Below, one piece after another: positions 3,368-18,472 of a DNA stretch of 23,107 nt. Both the position numbers and the translations under genes were made by a program. Source of the DNA: a virus; the IMG/VR virus record IMGVR_UViG_3300025276_000224, positions 1 to 23,107 of that record, one strand, 5' to 3'. The number at the start of each line of letters is the position of its first letter. Position 1 is the stretch's first letter. The notes under the pieces are model-generated. The model made no database searches. It worked only from the letters and a program-made list of their open reading frames with translations, and was not told where the DNA came from.

Positions 3368-3811
3368 ATGAAACTAGACCAACTACGTAAAATTATACGT
3401 GAAGAAATCAGATCAGCTGTCAAGGAAGAGTTACAAGATGTAATGAACGAAGCAGTTAGAGCTGCTAGCACGCCTAATGTGAAGGTAGCTAGCGAACACA
3501 AACCAGTAGTCGCTACACCAGCAACTCCTTCAAAGATGAATCCACAAATGGAAAAATCATCTTTAGACGAAATGTTAGCAATGACTAAAGCTAATATGAC
3601 AAATGAGGAATACAAGAATGTATTCACAGGAACAACAGCGAATGCACAAGGTGGAATACCTTCAAGAACTAACACAGCATCTACGATGGCTACACAAATG
3701 GGTGCATCATCAGGTAGAATGCCAGGTATTGATATATCGCAATTAGATTTTGTTAAAAAAGCAGGACAGGTATTATCCGCAGCAGAAGCAAAGAAACCGA
3801 CAAACAATTAA
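3368..3811 (+). CDS. small protein of unknown function between hub and gp25 genes
   Basis: The 147-residue product begins with a charged amphipathic helix, LRKIIREEIRSAVKEEL (residues 5-21), a pattern seen at the N-terminus of many small proteins of T4-like marine phages. Residues 30-60 are Pro/Ala/Thr-rich and probably disordered; residues 63-85 are helical (SSLDEMLAMTKANMTNEEYK); the remainder is Gly/Ser/Thr-rich, ending with a helix near FVKKAGQVLSAAEAKK. No enzyme motif, signal peptide or membrane segment is visible. It is three bases upstream of gp25 in the same transcription unit, so a role in baseplate assembly is plausible but unproven. The antisense strand is also open over nearly this whole length; I attribute that to codon bias. 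Confidence 0.75.
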   Translation: MKLDQLRKIIREEIRSAVKEELQDVMNEAVRAASTPNVKVASEHKPVVATPATPSKMNPQMEKSSLDEMLAMTKANMTNEEYKNVFTGTTANAQGGIPSRTNTASTMATQMGASSGRMPGIDISQLDFVKKAGQVLSAAEAKKPTNN

Positions 3812-3814
3812 TAT

Positions 3815-4225
3815 ATGGCATTTGAAGCAAAGAAAATAAATGTATTAGATCTACAGCCTAGAAAAGCAGTAGGTGTATCTTTGCCATTTTCTAATAAGGC
3901 AGTTTTTAACTCTACTTATGAGACTAAAGAAGCAATAAAAGCAAACCTTATTAACTATATATTAACAGGAAAAGGAGAAAGATACTTTAATCCAACATTT
4001 GGATCAGGAATTAGAAACCTACTATTTACTAATATCAATAGAGACACTTTAACAGACTTAGAGTTTTTAGTTAGAGATGCTTTACAGCAGTACTTTCCAA
4101 GACTAGAAATAATAAAACTAGACTTAAAAGATGCACCAGATTCTAACATGGTAAGTTTTACTTTAAATTTTAAACTAACAGACACTCAAGTAGAAGATGA
4201 GATAACAATTAATTTTGAACAATAA
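3815..4225 (+). CDS. gp25: baseplate wedge protein gp25
   Basis: The 136-residue protein matches the gp25/GPW family (T4 gp25 is 132 residues), which joins the wedge to the tail sheath and is related to type VI secretion TssE. The diagnostic block lies at residues 38-71: an amphipathic helix (KANLINYILTGKGERYF), then NPTFGSGIRNLLF, corresponding to the conserved 'P-x-F-G-S-G-(I/L)' core of the family. A helix follows (DLEFLVRDALQQYF, residues 81-94), then alternating strands (VSFTLNFKLTD). It starts three bases after the previous stop and its TAA overlaps the gp6 ATG (TAATG). The gp25-gp6 neighbourhood is a common arrangement in contractile injection systems and supports both calls. Confidence 0.9.
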   Translation: MAFEAKKINVLDLQPRKAVGVSLPFSNKAVFNSTYETKEAIKANLINYILTGKGERYFNPTFGSGIRNLLFTNINRDTLTDLEFLVRDALQQYFPRLEIIKLDLKDAPDSNMVSFTLNFKLTDTQVEDEITINFEQ

Positions 4226-6033
4226 TGGCTCAAGATATTAACATAAAATATACAGACAAAAACTTTTCTAGCCTAAGAGGGCAATTAGTAGAATTAGCTA
4301 AAAACTATTTTCCTGACGCCTATAATGACTTTTCTGCAACATCACCTGGAATGATGTTTATGGAAATGTCTGCTTATGTAGGAGATATACTTTCTTTTTA
4401 CCAAGACAGTCAATTACAAGAAACATTCCTACAGTATGCTAAAGATCCGGGTAACCTTTACTCGATGGCATACATGATGGGATATAAACCTAAACTGACA
4501 TCAGCATCTACAGTTAACATAGAATTAACACAAAGAGTAGCAGCAATCTCTACAGGTTCAACCTACCTACCTAACTTTAACCAAGCACTTAGATTAGGTG
4601 AGAATACAGTCATAACAGCAGGCTCAGAGAATTTTGTTTTAAATACAAATGTAGACTTTAGCTTTTCAAGTTCATATGATCCTACCTTAGTTACAATATA
4701 CAGTATTGACTCAAGCGGTAACCCAACAGAGTACGAATTAAAGAAAACAGCACCAGCTAGTTCTGGAGAAATAGTAACTAAAACCTTTAGTGTTGGAGCA
4801 GCATCTAAGTTTCTTACTTTAAGTATTGACGACCAATCTATTATAGGGATAGTAGACCTAAAGGATGGTGGAAATCAACTATACACCGAAGTCCCTTATT
4901 TAGGACAGGATACAGTCTTTACAGAAGCTGTTAACTCCGGTACTAATAAAAACCAAGTTCCTTACTTGCTTACAGCAACAAGAACTCCTAATCGATACGT
5001 AACAAGGTTTAACTCAACAGGTAAACTACAGATTCAATTTGGATCAGGAATGTCTACAAGTGATGATGGAGTATTCTTACCTAACCCAACAAATGTAGGC
5101 TCAGGAACAAATCAAGGAGTACGTAGAGCAGATCATGCTTTTGATCCATCTAACTTTATGTTCTCTAGTGCGTATGGAAATGCACCTTCTAATACAACAT
5201 TAACAGTTCGATACCTTAAAGGAGGTGGTATAGATTCAAATATAGGAGCAAATACAGTAACAGGTTTTACAGCATCTACATTAACTGCTACAGATACAGC
5301 TTACCAAAGCACATTATCAATAACAAACCCAGAACCAGCAGTAGGAGGTAAGGATGCAGATTCAGTAGATGAGATAAGACAGAATTCGTTACGCTCTTTT
5401 AATGAACAAGGTAGGATAGTAACTAAGCAAGATTATGCTTTCAGAGCTATGACAATGCCATCTAAGTTTGGAGCTATAGCAAAAACAAGCGTAGTAACAG
5501 ATATAGAGGTTCCAACTGCTAATGCAAGTACTTATAACCCATTAGGGGTATGTTTATATGTGCTAGCCTACGATAATAATAAGAACTTAGTACAAGCTAC
5601 ACCGCAGTTAAAAACAAACCTAAAAAAGTACATAACAGAGTTTAAATCACTTACTGAGGGATGTACTATAAAAGATGCATTTGTTATTAACGTTGGAGTT
5701 AAGTTTGATATAATTACACTACCTAGTTATAACTCTAGAGAAGTAATACTTAAATGTACACAAGCAGTACAGGATCACTTTAATGTAGATAAGTGGGCTA
5801 TTAACCAACCTATTAACCTCTCGACAATCTACACTCTTTTAGATAGAATAAAAGGAGTACAGACAGTACAAGACGTAAGAGTAGAAAGTAAAGTAAACGG
5901 AAACTATTCCACTTACGATTACGATATAAAAGGAGCAACAATGAATAACGTAGTTTATCCATCGTTAGATCCTATGATATTTGAAGTAAAATACCCGAAT
6001 AACGATATTCAGGGAAGAGTAACAACATTATAA
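4225..6033 (+). CDS. gp6: baseplate wedge protein gp6 (baseplate J family)
   Basis: The 602-residue protein is a gp6-type wedge subunit (T4 gp6 is 660 residues), which forms the inner iris of the baseplate and triggers sheath contraction. The N-terminus is characteristic: residues 12-60 contain NFSSLRGQLVELAKNYF, then SPGMMFMEMSAYVGDILSFY, the block by which these proteins are recognised. Residues 75-100 have MAYMMGYKPKLTSAS. The baseplate-J core is at about residues 382-425, with DEIRQNSLRSFNEQGRIVT followed by KQDYAFRAM. The C-terminal part (residues 480-600) is alpha/beta with INQPINLSTIYTLLDRIKGV, typical of the J-like end. It follows gp25 by a one-base overlap and precedes the next gene by one base, so the three are one translational chain. 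Confidence 0.9.
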   Translation: MAQDINIKYTDKNFSSLRGQLVELAKNYFPDAYNDFSATSPGMMFMEMSAYVGDILSFYQDSQLQETFLQYAKDPGNLYSMAYMMGYKPKLTSASTVNIELTQRVAAISTGSTYLPNFNQALRLGENTVITAGSENFVLNTNVDFSFSSSYDPTLVTIYSIDSSGNPTEYELKKTAPASSGEIVTKTFSVGAASKFLTLSIDDQSIIGIVDLKDGGNQLYTEVPYLGQDTVFTEAVNSGTNKNQVPYLLTATRTPNRYVTRFNSTGKLQIQFGSGMSTSDDGVFLPNPTNVGSGTNQGVRRADHAFDPSNFMFSSAYGNAPSNTTLTVRYLKGGGIDSNIGANTVTGFTASTLTATDTAYQSTLSITNPEPAVGGKDADSVDEIRQNSLRSFNEQGRIVTKQDYAFRAMTMPSKFGAIAKTSVVTDIEVPTANASTYNPLGVCLYVLAYDNNKNLVQATPQLKTNLKKYITEFKSLTEGCTIKDAFVINVGVKFDIITLPSYNSREVILKCTQAVQDHFNVDKWAINQPINLSTIYTLLDRIKGVQTVQDVRVESKVNGNYSTYDYDIKGATMNNVVYPSLDPMIFEVKYPNNDIQGRVTTL

Positions 6034-6034
6034 T

Positions 6035-7204
6035 ATGGCACTATATAGAATATTTCCTGAAAAAGACGCTTTTGTGTATACAGAAGGTCCTCTAGCGAAC
6101 ACAGGTAGAGATGCACTCCTTGAAGTAGGAGGGTATCCAACATCTGCCGGAGGGCAAACAGTTAGATCCTTAATTCAATTTGATCTAGCAGAAGTTAAAT
6201 CAGTACTAACCTCAAAAGTAGGTATAACATTACCAGCAGTAACAGGTTACTCTGCTAGTTTACATCTATCTTTAAATTATGCAGCAGAACTACCAATAGA
6301 ATATTCACTTAACGTTCACCCCTTAGCAGAAGCTTGGGATGAAGGTACAGGTAAATTCGGAGATATGCCAATTAATAAATCTGGTTGTAGTTGGAATTAT
6401 AAAAAAGCAGGTACAACTACTCGCTGGACAACAGGAAGTGAGAGCTTAACATCAAGTACCGGTAACGGATTTACTTTAACCTCTAACCTACTTTATACTA
6501 CTGGCTCATATAAAGACAGCCTTAAAGGTGGAGGGTATTACTACTTTACTACAGGATCAGCTCCTATAGTTCTTTCTGGAAGTGCTGCTTTTACTAAGAA
6601 CTCAGACCATGATTTAGATGTAGATATAACTAAAGCAATACAGTACCACACAAGTGATTATATTCCGAACTACGGCTTTATAGTTAAGATGCCAAATACT
6701 TTAGAGTATAATGTGTCTTCATCAGTAAGGTTAAAATACTACGGAGAAGATACAAATACTATTTACCCTCCTTATTTGGAGATTAAATGGGACGATTACG
6801 CACACTCATCTTCTTTATCAGAAATTACAGATACTGAAGCTGTTGTAAGTATAAGGAATAATAAAGGAAAGTACACAGATGAGGGTAAACAACGTTTCAG
6901 AATACATGCAAGACCTAAGTACCCTACTCGTACATATACCACCTCCTCTGCATATACCTCTAACTACTCACTCCCTACAGCATCATATTGGGGACTAAGA
7001 GATGAGAATACAGAAGAAATGGTGTTTGACTTTGATACAACGTATACAAAGATAAGTGCAGATAATACTTCTAACTATTTTGATATATACATGGATGGAC
7101 TTCAACCAGAGAGGTATTATAAGCTTTTAATAAAGACTGAAATAGACGGAACAACAACTGTAATTGATAACGATCAAATATTCAAGGTAGTAAGAAATGG
7201 CTAA
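6035..7204 (+). CDS. virion protein with DNRLRE/CBM96-like N-terminal domain
   Basis: The 389-residue protein starts with RIFPEKDAFVYTE, then NTGRDALLEVGG and RSLIQFDLAEV (residues 5-55), followed by strands ending at AEAWDEGTGKFGD (to about residue 108). This order (Asp start, 'N-x-G', a strand ending in Phe-Asp, and a Trp-x-Glu-Gly turn) matches the DNRLRE/CBM96 beta-sandwich family, which includes carbohydrate-binding modules. Residues 170-250 are further beta strands and the last 110 residues look like another sandwich (YFDIYMDGLQPERYYKLLI). It lies in the baseplate cluster, one base after gp6 and overlapping the next gene by eight bases. A structural or glycan-binding role at the baseplate is likely; glycan binding itself is inferred from family resemblance only. 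Confidence 0.75.
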   Translation: MALYRIFPEKDAFVYTEGPLANTGRDALLEVGGYPTSAGGQTVRSLIQFDLAEVKSVLTSKVGITLPAVTGYSASLHLSLNYAAELPIEYSLNVHPLAEAWDEGTGKFGDMPINKSGCSWNYKKAGTTTRWTTGSESLTSSTGNGFTLTSNLLYTTGSYKDSLKGGGYYYFTTGSAPIVLSGSAAFTKNSDHDLDVDITKAIQYHTSDYIPNYGFIVKMPNTLEYNVSSSVRLKYYGEDTNTIYPPYLEIKWDDYAHSSSLSEITDTEAVVSIRNNKGKYTDEGKQRFRIHARPKYPTRTYTTSSAYTSNYSLPTASYWGLRDENTEEMVFDFDTTYTKISADNTSNYFDIYMDGLQPERYYKLLIKTEIDGTTTVIDNDQIFKVVRNG

Positions 7205-8174
7205 AAAAGTAGAAATAAAGAAGACTGTATTTAACCGTAAGGAATTTAATGGAGTTGTCGATAGCAAGTTTAGGTTCTTCACAGAACCAGAACCTGTTAC
7301 TGATCCAGATACGGTTCAAGAGTTATTTAGACTATACGATAAACTATACGCATTAGTACCAATCGAAGGAGAAGAACAAACTCATCAGTACCTAGTAGAA
7401 AGAAGCTCAGAACTATATAAAATAGATGTACAGTTAGAAAGTATACAGCCCCTATTAGATGAGATCGCATCATTAAGAACTCAGAATTTAGAAGGTAATA
7501 GACGTATACTAGAATTAGAAATGCAGTTAGCTAATGGAGGAGAAATTAACTTTAGCGATGGTGAGCAAATGGCTTTACTGAGAACACAGCTCGATACAGC
7601 AAATAGCGCAATTGCATCACTGGAGGTAGCTAACACCTTAGCAAATCAAGCAACAACACAAGCACAAGATGCTGCTACTGCCGCAGCTGAAGCTGCTACT
7701 GCTGCTAGTCAAACATCCAGTTCTGCTACAAATACAAGCCAGAGCAATAAGTTTACAGAGGAAATTATTGAACTATTTAATAAGCCGAATACAGAGTACT
7801 ACCATGCTAAACGTTTGTTAAGTGAAAAGAAATATTACAGTAGAGCTTTTCGAAGAATTAACAATAGTTGGAATTACAGCTCCTACAACTTTTTAGCCGG
7901 AGTATCTCAATACTCATGGCTAGTAGAAGATAATGGCGACAATAACCGTCGTGGTAGGTATAGGTTTAAATTATTGTTTGACAACTTAGATGATGCAAGA
8001 CGTTTGACTATGGCTTACGTTGTTAAGAACTTAGAAACTGCAGGTTATCAAGCAAGTGAGATAATTAATGCAGTAGAAGAAATAAACAACTTTAAAGGTA
8101 ATGTTCGAATGAGACTTATAGAGTATAGAGATAGTGATAAAGAGCCTAAAGCGGGTTATAACATAGTAACATAG
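7197..8174 (+). CDS. coiled-coil virion protein with Ala-rich linker, unknown family
   Basis: The 325-residue product has three visible parts. Residues 1-75 are mixed and charged. Residues 75-150 form a predicted coiled coil with heptad spacing (ELYKIDVQLESIQPLLDEIA, RILELEMQLANGG, LRTQLDTANSAIASLEVAN). Residues 152-184 are an Ala/Thr/Ser-rich stretch (QDAATAAAEAATAASQTSSS). Residues 190-325 are a compact aromatic and basic domain (KRLLSEKKYYSRAFRRINNS, YQASEIINAVEEINNF). Architecture suggests a trimeric rod-like connector in the baseplate. The ATG overlaps the preceding gene by eight bases. I do not recognise the family; an analogue of a T4 wedge protein such as gp7, gp8 or gp53 cannot be excluded. 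Confidence 0.75.
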   Translation: MAKKVEIKKTVFNRKEFNGVVDSKFRFFTEPEPVTDPDTVQELFRLYDKLYALVPIEGEEQTHQYLVERSSELYKIDVQLESIQPLLDEIASLRTQNLEGNRRILELEMQLANGGEINFSDGEQMALLRTQLDTANSAIASLEVANTLANQATTQAQDAATAAAEAATAASQTSSSATNTSQSNKFTEEIIELFNKPNTEYYHAKRLLSEKKYYSRAFRRINNSWNYSSYNFLAGVSQYSWLVEDNGDNNRRGRYRFKLLFDNLDDARRLTMAYVVKNLETAGYQASEIINAVEEINNFKGNVRMRLIEYRDSDKEPKAGYNIVT

Positions 8175-8184
8175 GTAAGAAAAT

Positions 8185-11100
8185 ATGGCTAAAATTACAT
8201 ATACATTATTAGATAGAGAATATAGTTCTATCCCAGAGAATGAAAATTACTCTGCTGGAGACCTTAATCTTATAGAAAATTATCAAGTAAACAAAGAGTT
8301 TAATCCTGATACTAACTATATAGAGAGTCACTTCTATACACTAAACAACCAGAAAGTATTTTCAGTATATGATCAAGATTTAGCTTCAAATGTAGAACTA
8401 GACGCTGAAGGCCGTATAACTAACCTAGACCTACAACCAGAAAAGCTTTCAATAGATAATGGCTTTACAGGTGTGGATCATAAGATAGTTTACCACTTCT
8501 TAAATGATTTATATACAAATTCAAACAGTAAACAGCAACTCTTTATTAACTCTATCTCACAAGATAGAAAAGAAATACTACTTTACACAGACTCCCTAGA
8601 AGTTAATACATTAATTAACAAAACAGAGACTCTTAAAGAGAACTTAAAAAGTAAAGCCTACTTTGAGGAGTATTGGTTGAACCTTGGAGAGAATGATCTG
8701 TTTATAGTAACTAATGTTGACGTCTACGAATTAGACGATAAGTACACGATTGCTATAAAGCTTTATGAACCGCTATCAAAAGAGTACGACTTAAAGCAAG
8801 AAGTACAGCTTGTAGAGAAGGTAAGTGATTCTATAGTAGTAGAAGTTCAAGTAGAAGTTGAGGACGAGATTGAAACTGGACCAAAGCTTAGAGGAGCTAA
8901 TTTTAACATTGAACTTGAAGATAATAACCCTGTACCAACAGAGTACTTTAATTATGATGAATTATTTAGCTTTAGTACAGCTAACAGCAATAGAGAAATA
9001 TATTCACATATTAAAGATAGTAGTGTAGACATAAATATAGACTACTCAGACTATAAAAACTTTATACACTTTTCATCAGCTCAAGAAAGACTAAAAAACT
9101 TTAAATATAAAGTACAGCTTTTAGAGAGTTACGATGGAAGTAAACTATCAATTACTAACTCCACTAACAACTCAGGCAGTTTAGTAAAGTTTGATAATCT
9201 AATTAAAGGCATACTAGGTAATTTTGACCACTACGAAAAGGAACTGTATTTTACGAGCAGCTCCCACTCTTGGCCTAAATCTACAACATCAAAACCTCAT
9301 ATAAACCTACACTCTACTTCATCAATAAGTAGCGACTGGTATACAGCTCAACTAAATAGCGCATCAAACTACGATACATCCAACTACGACGTACTCTCTG
9401 CAACACTACCTTCTTATATAGCAGAAGACACTAACAATAGTAATGCAATCCTCTTTGTAGATATGATCGGTCAGCATTTTGACAATCTATGGATATATAC
9501 AAAAGCAATAACTGATAAGTACGACAACGATAATAGAGTAGATGTAGGTATATCTAAAGACCTAGTTAGAGAGGTATTAACTAGTTTCGGAACTAAACTA
9601 TATAACTCTACAGAAGGATCAGATGATTTATTTAAATATCTAATAGCAGATAGCTATGATAGTGGCAGCAGTGAAGAGGTGGTAAACACCTTCACAACAG
9701 TACCGGGTTTATCTGCAGACCTACAACCTGCTTCAAGAAAAGAGTACGAAGGAGATTTATACAAAAGGATATACCACAATTTACCTTTCCTTCTAAAAAC
9801 TAAAGGAACTGAAAGAGGGCTAAGAGCACTTATAAACTGTTTCGGAATACCAGCAGACTTTTTAACCATTAAACAATACGGAGGAAACTCAATAGAGTCA
9901 TCTAAGTTTTTTGGGTACGAAGAAGACAACGTACAAGCTTCTTATAAAGTAAGAGTTGAAACAAGAGCAAGCGGATCAGTCGGTAACGTATTATCTCAGT
10001 TTAAGTCTATACAGAAAACAGAAACCGAAAGAACATCTGATACACATAGGATAGAGGTGGGATTCTCTCCATCTGACAGTGTCAACGCTTATATAATTGC
10101 ACAGGTAAACAGTACATTCTCTATTGATGATTACATCGGAGAACCGCAGGACCTGTATAATAGCTCATACAGTAAATTAGATAAGTATGCTTCTACTTTA
10201 CTAAGCACTAATGTGGAAAGGTTCCAATTAAACGACTTCGTTAGGATACTTAAGTTCTACGATAATGTTGTTTTTAAGATGATTAAAGACTTCATACCTG
10301 CAAAAGGGACACTAGATACCGGTATTATAATAAAACCAAATCTATTAGATAGGTCGAAAATCAAATCACCTAAACTAAGTGGTACCAGACCAGAGTACAG
10401 CGCTTCAATTGATACAGCTTTTGTTACTGGTTCAGACGGTGGAGCTTATGATATGAACTCTATCAGTAAAACTACCTCTCATGTCCTTAAGGTACCTACT
10501 ATGTCAGGCTCTGTAAATAGGAACGTGATAGATGAAGCTCCTAAGTTTAATGGAGAACTTAGTGGGAGTATGATAGAAATTACAGACGGAGAATTAAATG
10601 AAAAAAATATATTTAAACAAGTTAAAATACCAGCTCTTAATTACGACATATTAAAAATAAATGAAGGCTCAGGAGCAACGTACACTTCTTTCCAGATGAG
10701 TACAGCAATATCACTAACAGCAACAGCATCTTGTGCTATATCATCCCCAACTTATACAACTCTCTACCACAACGATACTGGTAGTTATCCATCTACAGTT
10801 GGTACCTATATATTTACTGATATAGCCGGGAGCAATACATTCACTGGAGACACTGCTAATAGGTGGTATAGAATGAATAACGGACATACAATACTTATAT
10901 CCGGTTCAAGCACAGGACCAAACGGGTACGTAGGTCAAGTAACAAGTTGTGGGGATTTTGATTCTACCGCACCATCTGGTTATACAGCAACATGGAATAC
11001 AACAACTATAAACGGCTCCAACTTTACTGCTGTACCGTTCACAATACATAACGCTACATCTGGTGATACTTTTCAAGCAACCGCATCCCTAGCAGCTGAT

Positions 11101-12342
11101 GCAACTGAGGTAGCGTACACTACAGGTACTATCTATAACTCTTCAATGAACGCTTCTATAGATACCACAGATATTGCAGACGGCCCTAACGTATTACTTA
11201 ATATTAAACTAGTAGATGCAGCAGGTAATATAGGTTCACCAGCAACAGTATCATCAGGTATTAATTCAACATTAACAGCTAGTATAAAAGCTGTAAACGG
11301 TCCTTCAGGTTATTCAGTTAAGTTCTACACTAGCAGTACTTTTGGTACAGAGGAAACAGCAAATAGTACTGGTAATTTTTACGTAAGAGTAGAAACTATA
11401 GCAAATGGAACACGAGGTACTATTGGACTAGTATTAACATCAACTGGATTTAATTCTAGTACATTCTCTACTACAGCAGCAATAAATAACTCATTAAACA
11501 ATACGCCGAATGTAGCATTTACAATACCACGGTTCTCTAATACCCTAAAGAACGGGACAATTACCGCTTCTGTAACAATAACTGATCAAGCAGGTAATGC
11601 AGGGGCAGCAGTTACAGATACCGTAACACTCTTTATAGTAGATGGAAACTTAACAATAGCAAGTGGAACATCCACCATATCCTCTAACTCACAGTATAAG
11701 TACCTCAAGGTAGATAGTCTTACTCCAGCTAATTCTAGTTGGTCAATAACTGAGAGTCAAACCTTTACATCATTAGGACAATCAACCGGAACAGGAGCAG
11801 ACAGCAGCATACCAGCCCTCTTTACTACTAACACCTCCTCATCAGGTAGAAGCTCTACATTCCTTCTTAAAATTAATAACGTAACAGTAGATTACTACAC
11901 AGTATACCAACAAGGATCAGGTGGAGGAGGATCAGGTGGAGGAGGATGTGTAGCACCATTTACTTTAATTTTAATGAGTGACAATTCACAAAAACAAGCA
12001 TTGCACATAGGGATAGGAGATGAAATTAAAACTCAACAAGAAACTTCATTAGAATGGGTTAATGCTAGAGTAAGTGAAAAGAAGATAATTACAAGTACTA
12101 GAATAAAAATATTACTTGGAGACACCGAAGTTGTAGTATCACCTAAGCATAGATTCTACGTAGATAATAGACAAGATTATGTACATGCAGATGAATTAGT
12201 AGACGGAGACGTACTTAGCGGAGAACCTTATAACGGTACAGAGGAGTACCACGAAGGAGATGTAATTAAACTTTCAGTTGAATATGCTAAAACGTATATA
12301 TCAAATGGGATACTATCTCACAACGTTAAAGGTATCGAGTAA
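8185..12342 (+). CDS. large baseplate/tail protein with Ig-like, BACON-like and C-terminal Hint domains
   Basis: The 1385-residue protein is modular. Residues 1-790 form the virion part. It contains LPFLLKTKGTERGLRALIN (about 530-556), which resembles tail-protein-I style motifs, and FVRILKFYDNVVFKMIKDF followed by PAKGTLDTGIIIKP (about 683-720), a block common in marine phage structural proteins. Residues 859-925 form a small beta domain (LYHNDTGSYPSTVGTYIFTD). Residues 926-1027 and 1028-1150 are two Ig-like domains, the first ending in LVDAAGNIGS and the second containing ITDQAGNAGAA. Residues 1152-1243 look like a BACON domain ending in YYTVYQQ. A GSGGGGSGGGG linker (1244-1254) then leads into Cys1255, the start of a Hint domain that ends at His1379-Asn1380. 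Only VKGIE follows. SD-like AGGTAAG precedes the ATG. The Hint domain should cut or transfer the chain after residue 1254; this is inferred from its motifs. Confidence 0.85.
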   Translation: MAKITYTLLDREYSSIPENENYSAGDLNLIENYQVNKEFNPDTNYIESHFYTLNNQKVFSVYDQDLASNVELDAEGRITNLDLQPEKLSIDNGFTGVDHKIVYHFLNDLYTNSNSKQQLFINSISQDRKEILLYTDSLEVNTLINKTETLKENLKSKAYFEEYWLNLGENDLFIVTNVDVYELDDKYTIAIKLYEPLSKEYDLKQEVQLVEKVSDSIVVEVQVEVEDEIETGPKLRGANFNIELEDNNPVPTEYFNYDELFSFSTANSNREIYSHIKDSSVDINIDYSDYKNFIHFSSAQERLKNFKYKVQLLESYDGSKLSITNSTNNSGSLVKFDNLIKGILGNFDHYEKELYFTSSSHSWPKSTTSKPHINLHSTSSISSDWYTAQLNSASNYDTSNYDVLSATLPSYIAEDTNNSNAILFVDMIGQHFDNLWIYTKAITDKYDNDNRVDVGISKDLVREVLTSFGTKLYNSTEGSDDLFKYLIADSYDSGSSEEVVNTFTTVPGLSADLQPASRKEYEGDLYKRIYHNLPFLLKTKGTERGLRALINCFGIPADFLTIKQYGGNSIESSKFFGYEEDNVQASYKVRVETRASGSVGNVLSQFKSIQKTETERTSDTHRIEVGFSPSDSVNAYIIAQVNSTFSIDDYIGEPQDLYNSSYSKLDKYASTLLSTNVERFQLNDFVRILKFYDNVVFKMIKDFIPAKGTLDTGIIIKPNLLDRSKIKSPKLSGTRPEYSASIDTAFVTGSDGGAYDMNSISKTTSHVLKVPTMSGSVNRNVIDEAPKFNGELSGSMIEITDGELNEKNIFKQVKIPALNYDILKINEGSGATYTSFQMSTAISLTATASCAISSPTYTTLYHNDTGSYPSTVGTYIFTDIAGSNTFTGDTANRWYRMNNGHTILISGSSTGPNGYVGQVTSCGDFDSTAPSGYTATWNTTTINGSNFTAVPFTIHNATSGDTFQATASLAADATEVAYTTGTIYNSSMNASIDTTDIADGPNVLLNIKLVDAAGNIGSPATVSSGINSTLTASIKAVNGPSGYSVKFYTSSTFGTEETANSTGNFYVRVETIANGTRGTIGLVLTSTGFNSSTFSTTAAINNSLNNTPNVAFTIPRFSNTLKNGTITASVTITDQAGNAGAAVTDTVTLFIVDGNLTIASGTSTISSNSQYKYLKVDSLTPANSSWSITESQTFTSLGQSTGTGADSSIPALFTTNTSSSGRSSTFLLKINNVTVDYYTVYQQGSGGGGSGGGGCVAPFTLILMSDNSQKQALHIGIGDEIKTQQETSLEWVNARVSEKKIITSTRIKILLGDTEVVVSPKHRFYVDNRQDYVHADELVDGDVLSGEPYNGTEEYHEGDVIKLSVEYAKTYISNGILSHNVKGIE
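10961..11913 (+). other. beta-domain stack (two Ig-like domains and a BACON-like domain) in the 8185 protein
   Basis: Residues 926-1243 of the 8185 gene product. The Ig-like parts show the recurring pattern of strands followed by 'D-x-A/Q-A-G-N-x-G' (LVDAAGNIGS; ITDQAGNAGAA). The last part, with the core ANSSWSIT and an end in TVYQQG, fits the BACON pattern of a tryptophan core and a final strand followed by Q-x-G. Such domains are typical of secreted Bacteroidota proteins and phages infecting them, and often bind glycans. Domain boundaries are approximate and the BACON assignment is moderate. Confidence 0.6.
11914..11943 (+). repeat. perfect 15-base tandem repeat encoding a Gly/Ser linker
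   Basis: GGATCAGGTGGAGGA occurs twice in direct succession (11914-11928 and 11929-11943). It encodes GSGGG twice and, with the following GGA, gives GSGGGGSGGGG immediately before Cys1255 of the Hint domain. It resembles flexible linkers used in protein engineering but uses the same codons as its surroundings. It is likely to be prone to slippage. Confidence 0.95.
11947..12324 (+). other. Hint (intein/hedgehog-like) autoprocessing domain, 126 residues
   Basis: Residues 1255-1380 of the 8185 product. Block A is Cys1255 with CVAPFTLILM and then GIGDEIKTQ. Block B is VVVSPKHRFYV with His1322 three residues after Ser1319, the S/T-x-x-H arrangement that aids the N-S acyl shift. Blocks F and G are VIKLSVEYAKTYISNGILSHN, ending in the conserved His-Asn. 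There is no space for a homing endonuclease. The residue after Asn is Val1381, not Cys, Ser or Thr, and the C-extein is only five residues. Standard splicing is therefore not expected; the layout is that of a bacterial intein-like type A or phage C-terminal Hint domain. Cleavage before Cys1255, perhaps with attachment of the upstream chain to a nucleophile, and after Asn1380, are the expected reactions. Confidence 0.85.
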
Positions 12343-16834: not shown

Positions 16835-18472
16835 ATGGCAATAACTCTAAGAAAAAATAAAGGATCCGCACTATCTTATGAAGAATTAGATATTAATTTT
16901 CATGAGTATTTCTACTCAGCATCTGTTAGTTCAGATAGCAAGCAATTAACTTTACACTACACAGGTAGTAGTCTAAAGAGTGCAGGTGGAATTAATATAG
17001 CGTTAAATACCTATACCGGTTCTTCGGTAGTAGCAGGAGCTGTGAATACATTCCAGTACAACTTAGATGGAACAAATTTAGGTGGAGCAGCAGGACTAAT
17101 CTACGATGCATCAAAAAATGGAGTAGCAATAGGTACTTCATCTTTAGAGACTGGAGAAAAATTTAGGCTAGAAGGCGGTGACATGGTACTAGATGATAGT
17201 TCATTTTACCTTGCACAGGGTAGTCTATCAGCTAGTTTAGCTTATGGAGGTACAACAAGAGACCTTACAATTAGAAACCACCACAACAATGGTAACTCTG
17301 ATATAGTATTTCATACTGGAGCTGCTGAAGCACTGAGAATTAAAGGAGACGGAAAAATTACTCATAAAGGTAGTTCATCCGCTCTAGGAGATTTTGTTAT
17401 TAGCGGTAGTATTATATTTGGAAAGACCCATGTAGATACTTACAGATCTAAATTATTTACTTGGGATTCAGGAAATCCAAGAATAGAAAGTAACACAGGT
17501 AATAACCTATTAATTGGAAACGAAAGAGGTATAATTTTAGAAGGACCTCAATCAGCACACGTAGTAATGGGTATTCAATCTGCTACAGGTAACGAAGCTT
17601 TTGCTATTATGTCAGCACCTCCTACTTCTAGTGCTGAGCCAACATACACAAGGCTAGTAGCTAATTTTGCTGCAGACGGTAAAGTTGGAATAGGAACATC
17701 TAATCCTCCATCAGGATATCAACTGAGTGTAGTAGGTAGTATTTCCGGATCTAATGGACTTAATCTAGCCGGTAATGCAGTTATAACAGGTTCCATAACA
17801 ACTAACGCTAACTTAGTAGTTAGTCAATCAGCAGTACTATCAGGTACCTTAACCCTTAACTCAGTCGCTACTGCTTCTTCAGCTACTAATTATAACTTCT
17901 TAGTAAGAGAGTCAAGTGGGGCAGTAACAAAACAGGTTAATGCAGCACCAATTCCACAAGGAGGAATTATAATGTGGTCAGGAGCAGTTCAATCACTACC
18001 TACAGGCTGGAATCTTTGCAACGGAGCAACATATAATTCTATAGCAACACCAGACTTAAGGAATAAATTTATAGTATCTTCAAACAATACCACAGGTACA
18101 CCTACAACAACAATATCAGGAAGTGCTGTAGCAACTGGAGGTAATACAAATCACAATCACTTTGGTACTGTAAATGCTACAACATTATCTACAAATCAAA
18201 TACCTTCTCATACGCATACGTATAAAGATTCGTACTACATAGAGGTTAATAATCCCGGTGTAGGAGCTAATGGAGCTATAAGTGGAGTTGACTATGTCGG
18301 TTCTACTGCATATAAAGGAAGTGGAGATAGTGATACAGATAACAAATACGTATACTATAGAAACGGTACTACAAATAGCACAGGAAACGGTGCAGGACAT
18401 AATCACAGTATAACTACATCATACCACGTTCCAACCTTTTATGCCTTAGCATTTATTATGTATACTGGCTAA
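16835..18472 (+). CDS. short tail fibre with collar-type C-terminus (gp12-like)
   Basis: The 545-residue protein has an N-terminal module (ITLRKNKGSALSYEELDINF, residues 3-22) that is shared with the next gene and probably docks to the baseplate. The middle (about 120-365) consists of short beta repeats such as GKVGIGTSNPPSGYQLSVVG, a shaft pattern. The C-terminal part is a tail-collar-like tip: PQGGIIMWSGAVQSLPTGWN (about 372-392), then CNGATYN and DLRNKFIVSS. Three His-x-His motifs follow at 440-442 (HNH), 459-461 (HTH) and 522-524 (HNH), and the end is VPTFYALAFIMYTG. In T4 gp12 such motifs bind a metal ion in the receptor-binding trimer. The product should bind the host surface, and T4-type fibres of this kind normally need a chaperone. 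Confidence 0.85.
   Translation: MAITLRKNKGSALSYEELDINFHEYFYSASVSSDSKQLTLHYTGSSLKSAGGINIALNTYTGSSVVAGAVNTFQYNLDGTNLGGAAGLIYDASKNGVAIGTSSLETGEKFRLEGGDMVLDDSSFYLAQGSLSASLAYGGTTRDLTIRNHHNNGNSDIVFHTGAAEALRIKGDGKITHKGSSSALGDFVISGSIIFGKTHVDTYRSKLFTWDSGNPRIESNTGNNLLIGNERGIILEGPQSAHVVMGIQSATGNEAFAIMSAPPTSSAEPTYTRLVANFAADGKVGIGTSNPPSGYQLSVVGSISGSNGLNLAGNAVITGSITTNANLVVSQSAVLSGTLTLNSVATASSATNYNFLVRESSGAVTKQVNAAPIPQGGIIMWSGAVQSLPTGWNLCNGATYNSIATPDLRNKFIVSSNNTTGTPTTTISGSAVATGGNTNHNHFGTVNATTLSTNQIPSHTHTYKDSYYIEVNNPGVGANGAISGVDYVGSTAYKGSGDSDTDNKYVYYRNGTTNSTGNGAGHNHSITTSYHVPTFYALAFIMYTG

Follow-up and report, generated by a model that had tools for sequence, protein, structure and literature searches.

A Hint domain at the C-terminus of a putative phage baseplate protein, and a lysine conserved after His-Asn in a family of related domains

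Gene content of the fragment and structure of the carrier

The DNA analysed here, referred to throughout as the window, is a 23,107-base IMG/VR virus fragment (IMGVR_UViG_3300025276_000224) from a marine phage. An open reading frame at positions 8185-12342, with its stop codon at 12340-12342, was translated to give a 1385-aa protein, termed the carrier, whose end reads GGGGSGGGG-C1255VAPFTLILMSDNSQKQ...VVVS1319PKH1322RFYV...KTYISNGILSH1379N1380-VKGIE-stop. The features of the locus are listed below; the family named there is the set of related Hint domains described in the following section.

3815-4225, + strand: gp25-like baseplate wedge gene, context (PF04965, E 1.7e-12; phrog_261)
4225-6033, + strand: baseplate J/gp6-like wedge gene, context (phrog_219, E 1.9e-17; PF04865)
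8185-12342, + strand: carrier gene, putative 1385-aa tail/baseplate protein with a variable C-terminal half (open reading frame; homologue of immuto gp109)
11422-11640, + strand: part of an Ig-like stretch upstream of BACON (weak PF19077 Big_13 match, E 0.009)
11641-11913, + strand: BACON domain, residues 1153-1243 (homology to segments of relatives)
11914-11946, + strand: Gly-rich linker GSGGGGSGGGG, residues 1244-1254, up to the predicted scissile Gly-Cys bond (translation)
11947-12324, + strand: Hint domain, residues 1255-1380 (AlphaFold2, Foldseek, HMM match to BIL and intein structures in the PDB)
11947-11949, + strand: Cys1255, predicted nucleophile of the N-S acyl shift (invariant in the alignment of relatives)
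12139-12150, + strand: block B motif SPKH with His1322 (His invariant in the alignment of relatives)
12319-12324, + strand: His1379-Asn1380, predicted site of Asn cyclisation (SHN in 49/49 non-redundant members)
12325-12339, + strand: C-terminal tail VKGIE, residues 1381-1385 (translation)
12328-12330, + strand: Lys1382, +2 from Asn, proposed acyl acceptor (Lys at +1 or +2 in all 60 family domains)
16835-18472, + strand: tail-collar fibre gene, context (PF07484; phrog_5795, E 3e-23)

The carrier was found to share 44% identity over 822 aa with gp109 of Flavobacterium phage immuto, and the gene order is alike in the two. In the window, a gp25-like gene, a J-like wedge gene and two further genes precede the carrier, and it is because of this synteny with wedge genes that the protein is labelled a baseplate protein. 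A preliminary description of this DNA, made from the sequence alone, had used the same label; gene order upholds it, while the N-terminal part of the protein itself resembled nothing known in profile and structure searches. A profile of this part gave only chance matches against the PDB, and the predicted structure of the N-terminal 761 aa had a pLDDT of 50 and no meaningful fold match. The far end of the protein had been described as Ig/BACON. BACON was confirmed through relatives, since residues 1153-1243 matched the equivalent segments of related proteins (BLASTP E 4e-9 and 6e-7) and those segments match Pfam BACON or BACON_2 (E 7e-8 and 3.7e-7); the Ig-like part corresponds to the weak PF19077 match.

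The Hint domain and its relatives

Cys1255, S-x-x-H at 1319-1322 and His1379-Asn1380 were all present in the translation exactly as previously described, and 126 residues extend from Cys1255 to Asn1380. The isolated domain matched PF14890 (Intein_splicing) with an E value of 5e-5, which is below threshold at the curated cut-off, and NCBIfam gave an intein-containing family with an E value of 8e-7. An alignment of 48 non-redundant family domains, with identities down to 28%, was used both for an HMM and as the input to AlphaFold2. Its invariant columns are Cys1, G24, T29, the block B His68, T116, Y117, S124, His125 and Asn126. Against the PDB, the HMM matched BIL2 (4e-13), the BIL 2lwy (5e-11) and many inteins. 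The AlphaFold2 model of the domain had a pLDDT of 95.4 and a pTM of 0.87, and in Foldseek it matched BIL2 of Tetrahymena BUBL1 (TM 0.84-0.88), the Clostridium BIL 2LWY (0.85), the Ssp DnaB intein (0.84), gp41-1, RecA and other inteins, and hedgehog (0.74); all of the 50 best matches listed were Hint or intein structures. Fold prediction and comparison had been named beforehand as a possible refutation, and the predicted fold is that of Hint, so that the finding of a complete Hint domain at the C-terminus survived with profile, model and Foldseek in agreement. The block F position is occupied by His in 40 of 49 family members and by Lys in the window domain and its clade, and the residue preceding Cys1 is Gly in 14 of the 49. 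Comparison with the closest relative gave a dN of 0.14 and a dS of 0.82, and the low dN relative to dS indicates purifying selection where the domain is present. Predicted fold, family conservation and selection thus support a complete Hint domain with its catalytic residues intact and a chemistry that would be non-canonical.

A search for the same C-terminal domain across phages, as the preliminary description had proposed, returned relatives as well as many homologues that lack it. When the conserved part of the carrier was used as query, 80 loci were retrieved, of which about 20 encode the domain; about 15 marine phages besides that of the window have it at the corresponding C-terminus. The loci that encode it include three ending in HN-GK (L140, L152 and L178), and three others have a more distant Hint close to the same carrier end (L167, L169 and L181). 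Most other complete homologues have unrelated C-termini with no Hint, and immuto gp109 is also without the domain. Since homologues occur with the domain, with a distant one or with none, the module is optional and swapped.

Beyond the carrier homologues, alignment searches yielded some 80 more family loci. Their carriers are unrelated proteins, among them J-like tail tips (phrog_5616, phrog_31), DUF4815/phrog_358 proteins and Pro-rich proteins, and the Hint may be C-terminal, internal or N-terminal; in most C-terminal members, 1 to 31 residues follow the Asn. In five proteins (L082, L083, L084, L086 and L087) the Hint is at the extreme N-terminus, with Met-Ala ahead of the Cys and 340-373 residues beyond HN-KG. 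Two proteins (L078 and L081) each have two tandem family Hints (residues 33-169 and 220-353 in L078), which are followed by HN-KK and HN-KS. On one contig (L080, shared with L028) two tail genes, a 362-aa upstream open frame starting near 3416 and a J-like tip protein (ORF 4979-7348), both end in a family Hint with HN-VK. In L079 a second, different Hint-like domain with a Gly linker (residues about 640-789) directly follows the first and ends HHN-VPINEQ. A phage tail protein (L117) and a protein from an archaeal MAG (L200) share a similar post-Hint segment, LC/IC-x-E-x-Y-x-QGYL...GY..WA.

No second family domain was found within the window. The window Hint as query had no match in isolate phages, and with relatives as queries 50,697 phage records contained one clear member, an unverified gut sequence; the other matches examined were inteins (in terminases, helicases and the like) or other Hints. 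A close-family scan of bacterial genomes found none. In the literature searched, no description of a virion Hint family was found, which its near-absence from sequenced phage records may explain. The virion-wide Hint family, together with its invariant Lys, is new here.

A lysine following His-Asn

The preliminary description had singled out the Val after His-Asn. Val1381 is indeed at +1 in the window, and relatives mostly have V, I, N, A, G or K there, with Thr in two; the informative residue is instead Lys1382, since every family member has Lys at one of the first two positions after Asn. Among 49 non-redundant domains, Lys was at +1 in 25 and at +2 in 24, and once further members had been added it was at one of these positions in 60 of 60, as was His-Asn ahead of it. 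The expectation, calculated from 4.6% Lys at positions +3 to +25, is 9% per domain. Family retrieval was independent of the residues at +1 and +2. Both Lys codons, AAA and AAG, are in use, and the tree requires five or more switches of Lys from one of the two positions to the other and no loss of it. Some proteins stop exactly at the Lys, with tails of IK, NK, GK or K.

Controls were drawn by an unconditioned DNA motif for ANG(I)xVHN. The 64 other viral Hint or intein ends had Cys, Ser or Thr in 61 cases, another residue in three, and Lys at +1 or +2 in none. The 68 bacterial and archaeal ends had Cys, Ser or Thr in 56, Lys at +1 in 11 and Arg in one (L208), so that in this sample Lys is the usual residue where the intein nucleophile is absent (11 of 12). 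Pattern and protein surveys of Bacteroidota gave few matches, and those with a readable Hint end had HN-K. Lys also stands at +1, instead of Cys, Ser or Thr, in what appears to be a ribonucleotide reductase intein from an archaeal MAG (L248).

Two broader generalizations were discarded. That Lys is universal in all Hints without Cys, Ser or Thr was rejected, as viral examples, including phage NCTB, lack it. An association of Lys at +1 with internal domains and at +2 with C-terminal ones held in 55 of 60 raw cases, but the Lys position follows clades and is not independent of descent, and the association was therefore not used as evidence.

Relationship to known systems and proposed processing

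Within the Hint superfamily the window domain is BIL-like; it is neither a canonical intein nor a Hog domain. It has the Hint fold by AlphaFold2 and Foldseek, along with Cys1255 and the block B His1322. As in type A BILs, it has a terminal His-Asn and no obligatory +1 nucleophile, and lies in a variable region of a non-conserved protein. A canonical class 1 intein would have Cys, Ser or Thr at +1 and be inserted in a conserved site with a real C-extein; here Val1381 is at +1, and the domain lies in the variable C-terminal half with five residues behind its Asn. The sterol-recognition region of a Hog domain is missing, the stop codon coming five residues past Asn, and no toxin domain follows the window Hint as in PT-HINT.

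BIL2 of Tetrahymena thermophila BUBL1 (PDB 6Y75, 6TMM) was the best match to the phage domain by both profile (4e-13) and fold (TM 0.88), and in both a Gly-Gly end precedes the Hint (an RGG motif in BIL2, PMC9200820). The two are about 20% identical, and BIL2, which has a zinc-binding His pair (H48 and H125), lies between ubiquitin-like domains in a ciliate whereas the phage domain is the last in its protein. Type A BILs such as that of Clostridium thermocellum (2LWY, TM 0.85) share Cys1, the block B His, the terminal His-Asn and the lack of a +1 nucleophile; in reviews their +1 side is described as lacking a nucleophile and a conserved Lys is not mentioned, whereas the phage family sits on virion proteins. 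Bacterial C-terminal Hints, mostly from Bacteroidota (L190, L191, L203, L232 and L256), end in His-Asn-Lys and 0-4 further residues, with BIL2 as the nearest structure; they differ from the phage family in their carriers, in an identity of about 24%, and in having Lys at +1 rather than +2. One of them belongs to Flavobacterium sp. LMO8, the host of immuto: its own 635-aa protein (L190) ends in a Hint with HN-KN, and the phage homologue is without the domain. For three of these Hints (L190, L191 and L256) the best Pfam match was AXH (ataxin-1), with E values down to 8e-20, and bacterial AXH labels may therefore really denote Hint domains. The pretoxin Hint PF07591 (PT-HINT) was matched by 30 of 48 family members and not reached by the window domain; the phage family differs in having no toxin domain and no immunity gene. 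The "large intein domain protein" of phage NCTB (BN7874_132, L436) likewise has a Gly-rich linker and a C-terminal Hint and adjoins another large gene, but it belongs to another subfamily, with a post-Asn tail of APVDQKH and no Lys at +1 or +2. As outlined in PMC7078468, the RTX self-processing (clip-and-link) module cuts the chain and then attaches the C-terminal acyl group so created to a Lys close by; it is an unrelated, calcium-dependent domain acting on an Asp-Pro bond, and so a functional analogue only.

Two of these systems bear on the chemistry. In type A BILs that lack a +1 nucleophile, a thioester is formed and the chain is cut at Asn, with ligation through a free amine possible and cleavage dominating (PMC4031507). 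BIL2 is reported to form an isopeptide bond to a Lys epsilon-amine and, with no need for ATP, to attach its ubiquitin-like domain to other proteins (PMC8616854). We consider it very probable that the window domain is self-processing, and the best reading is that of an active type-A-BIL-like Hint module which processes the end of its own tail protein, where activity and acceptor, as well as the chemical steps and the choice of cis or trans, are what we infer. Cys1255, assisted by His1322, would attack the Gly1254 carbonyl (N-S acyl shift) to give a thioester on the Gly-rich linker; the amine of Lys1382 would then capture the acyl group in an isopeptide bond, within the same chain or on a neighbouring tail copy; and cyclisation of Asn1380 would free the Hint. 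The BACON end would be left carrying an isopeptide-linked Lys tail, or joined to a neighbouring subunit. This scheme is favoured because an amine seems to be required in the precursor even where it is the last residue, most simply as the acyl acceptor before Asn cyclisation. As a whole, with Lys as acceptor, we give it slightly less than an even chance. The Lys could be electrostatic or catalytic rather than an acceptor, and one bacterial end without Cys, Ser or Thr has Arg (L208). The solved BIL2 construct has Met-Gln after its (mutated) Asn, so that its acceptor Lys is not at +1 or +2 there. C-terminal Hints of other phage subfamilies also do without the Lys (HN-AP in phage NCTB, and the second domain of L079). 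The change of block F His to Lys in the window may weaken or slow Asn cyclisation, and a cis product that adds merely five residues has no obvious benefit.

The main rival to Lys capture is self-removal of a C-terminal cap. Hydrolysis of the thioester, or attack on it by a small thiol, would detach Hint and tail and leave a protein ending in Gly1254. The Hint would then serve as a removable cap during assembly or folding, and the Lys would only tune its active site. Cleavage is the dominant outcome in type A BILs (PMC4031507) and feasible for every C-terminal member however short its tail, and a C-terminal site, set off from BACON by a flexible linker, is well suited to a cap that can be discarded. 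We nevertheless hold it to be somewhat unlikely, as it leaves the invariant Lys (60/60) unexplained, N-junction hydrolysis needs none of the His-Asn kept in 60 of 60, and internal and N-terminal family Hints are not caps. The preliminary description had proposed a covalent tether, formed when an amine on a second virion protein or on the host surface takes over the thioester. BIL2 is reported to conjugate its ubiquitin-like partner to other proteins (PMC8616854), family domains occur on tip, baseplate and fibre-type proteins, and one phage has the domain on two neighbouring tail genes; a foreign acceptor, however, would need no built-in Lys after Asn, and with the protein stopping where it does there is no target-recognition part like the hedgehog sterol-recognition region. 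Such conjugation in trans is improbable in our estimate, and attachment to a host amine, thiol or glycan found no specific support. A conserved Lys built into the protein suggests that the acceptor is in the same molecule or in an adjacent copy. What stands of the original proposal is a complete, catalytically intact Hint with a putative non-canonical chemistry; its statement that standard splicing is ruled out was too strong, as splicing still occurs in type A BILs that lack a +1 nucleophile, if less often than cleavage (PMC4031507).

An inactive or purely structural relic of an intein would fit the loss of the block F His in the window clade, but it is very unlikely, given that the remaining catalytic residues do not vary in any of 48 domains carried by unrelated proteins and that dN/dS is low. 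Least credible, to the point of being nearly dismissed, is a canonical mobile mini-intein near the protein end: the Hint fold is common to inteins, but the +1 residue is not Cys, Ser or Thr, the C-extein has five residues, there is no endonuclease, and the domain is not in a conserved active site, with homologues differing across the whole C-terminal half.

With Lys capture as the favoured scheme, an extension of it may be put forward as a speculation that we think unlikely on balance: these virion Hints would make up a class with Lys as acceptor in place of the +1 nucleophile of inteins, and neighbouring tail subunits would be joined by isopeptide bonds as the Lys of each copy takes over the Gly-thioester of the copy before it, so that covalent chains or rings arise in the baseplate or tail tip without ATP. 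More generally, the family domains suggest that phages process their own tail proteins by covalent trimming or joining, with no need for enzymes or an energy source. If the domains are active, phage tails would mature or cross-link themselves by built-in intein-like chemistry, of which no account was found in the literature searched. The invariant Lys offers a simple, testable idea for Hints without the usual nucleophile in phages and bacteria alike, and a small self-acting domain that forms isopeptide bonds, if this is what it is, would be a useful tool for protein ligation.
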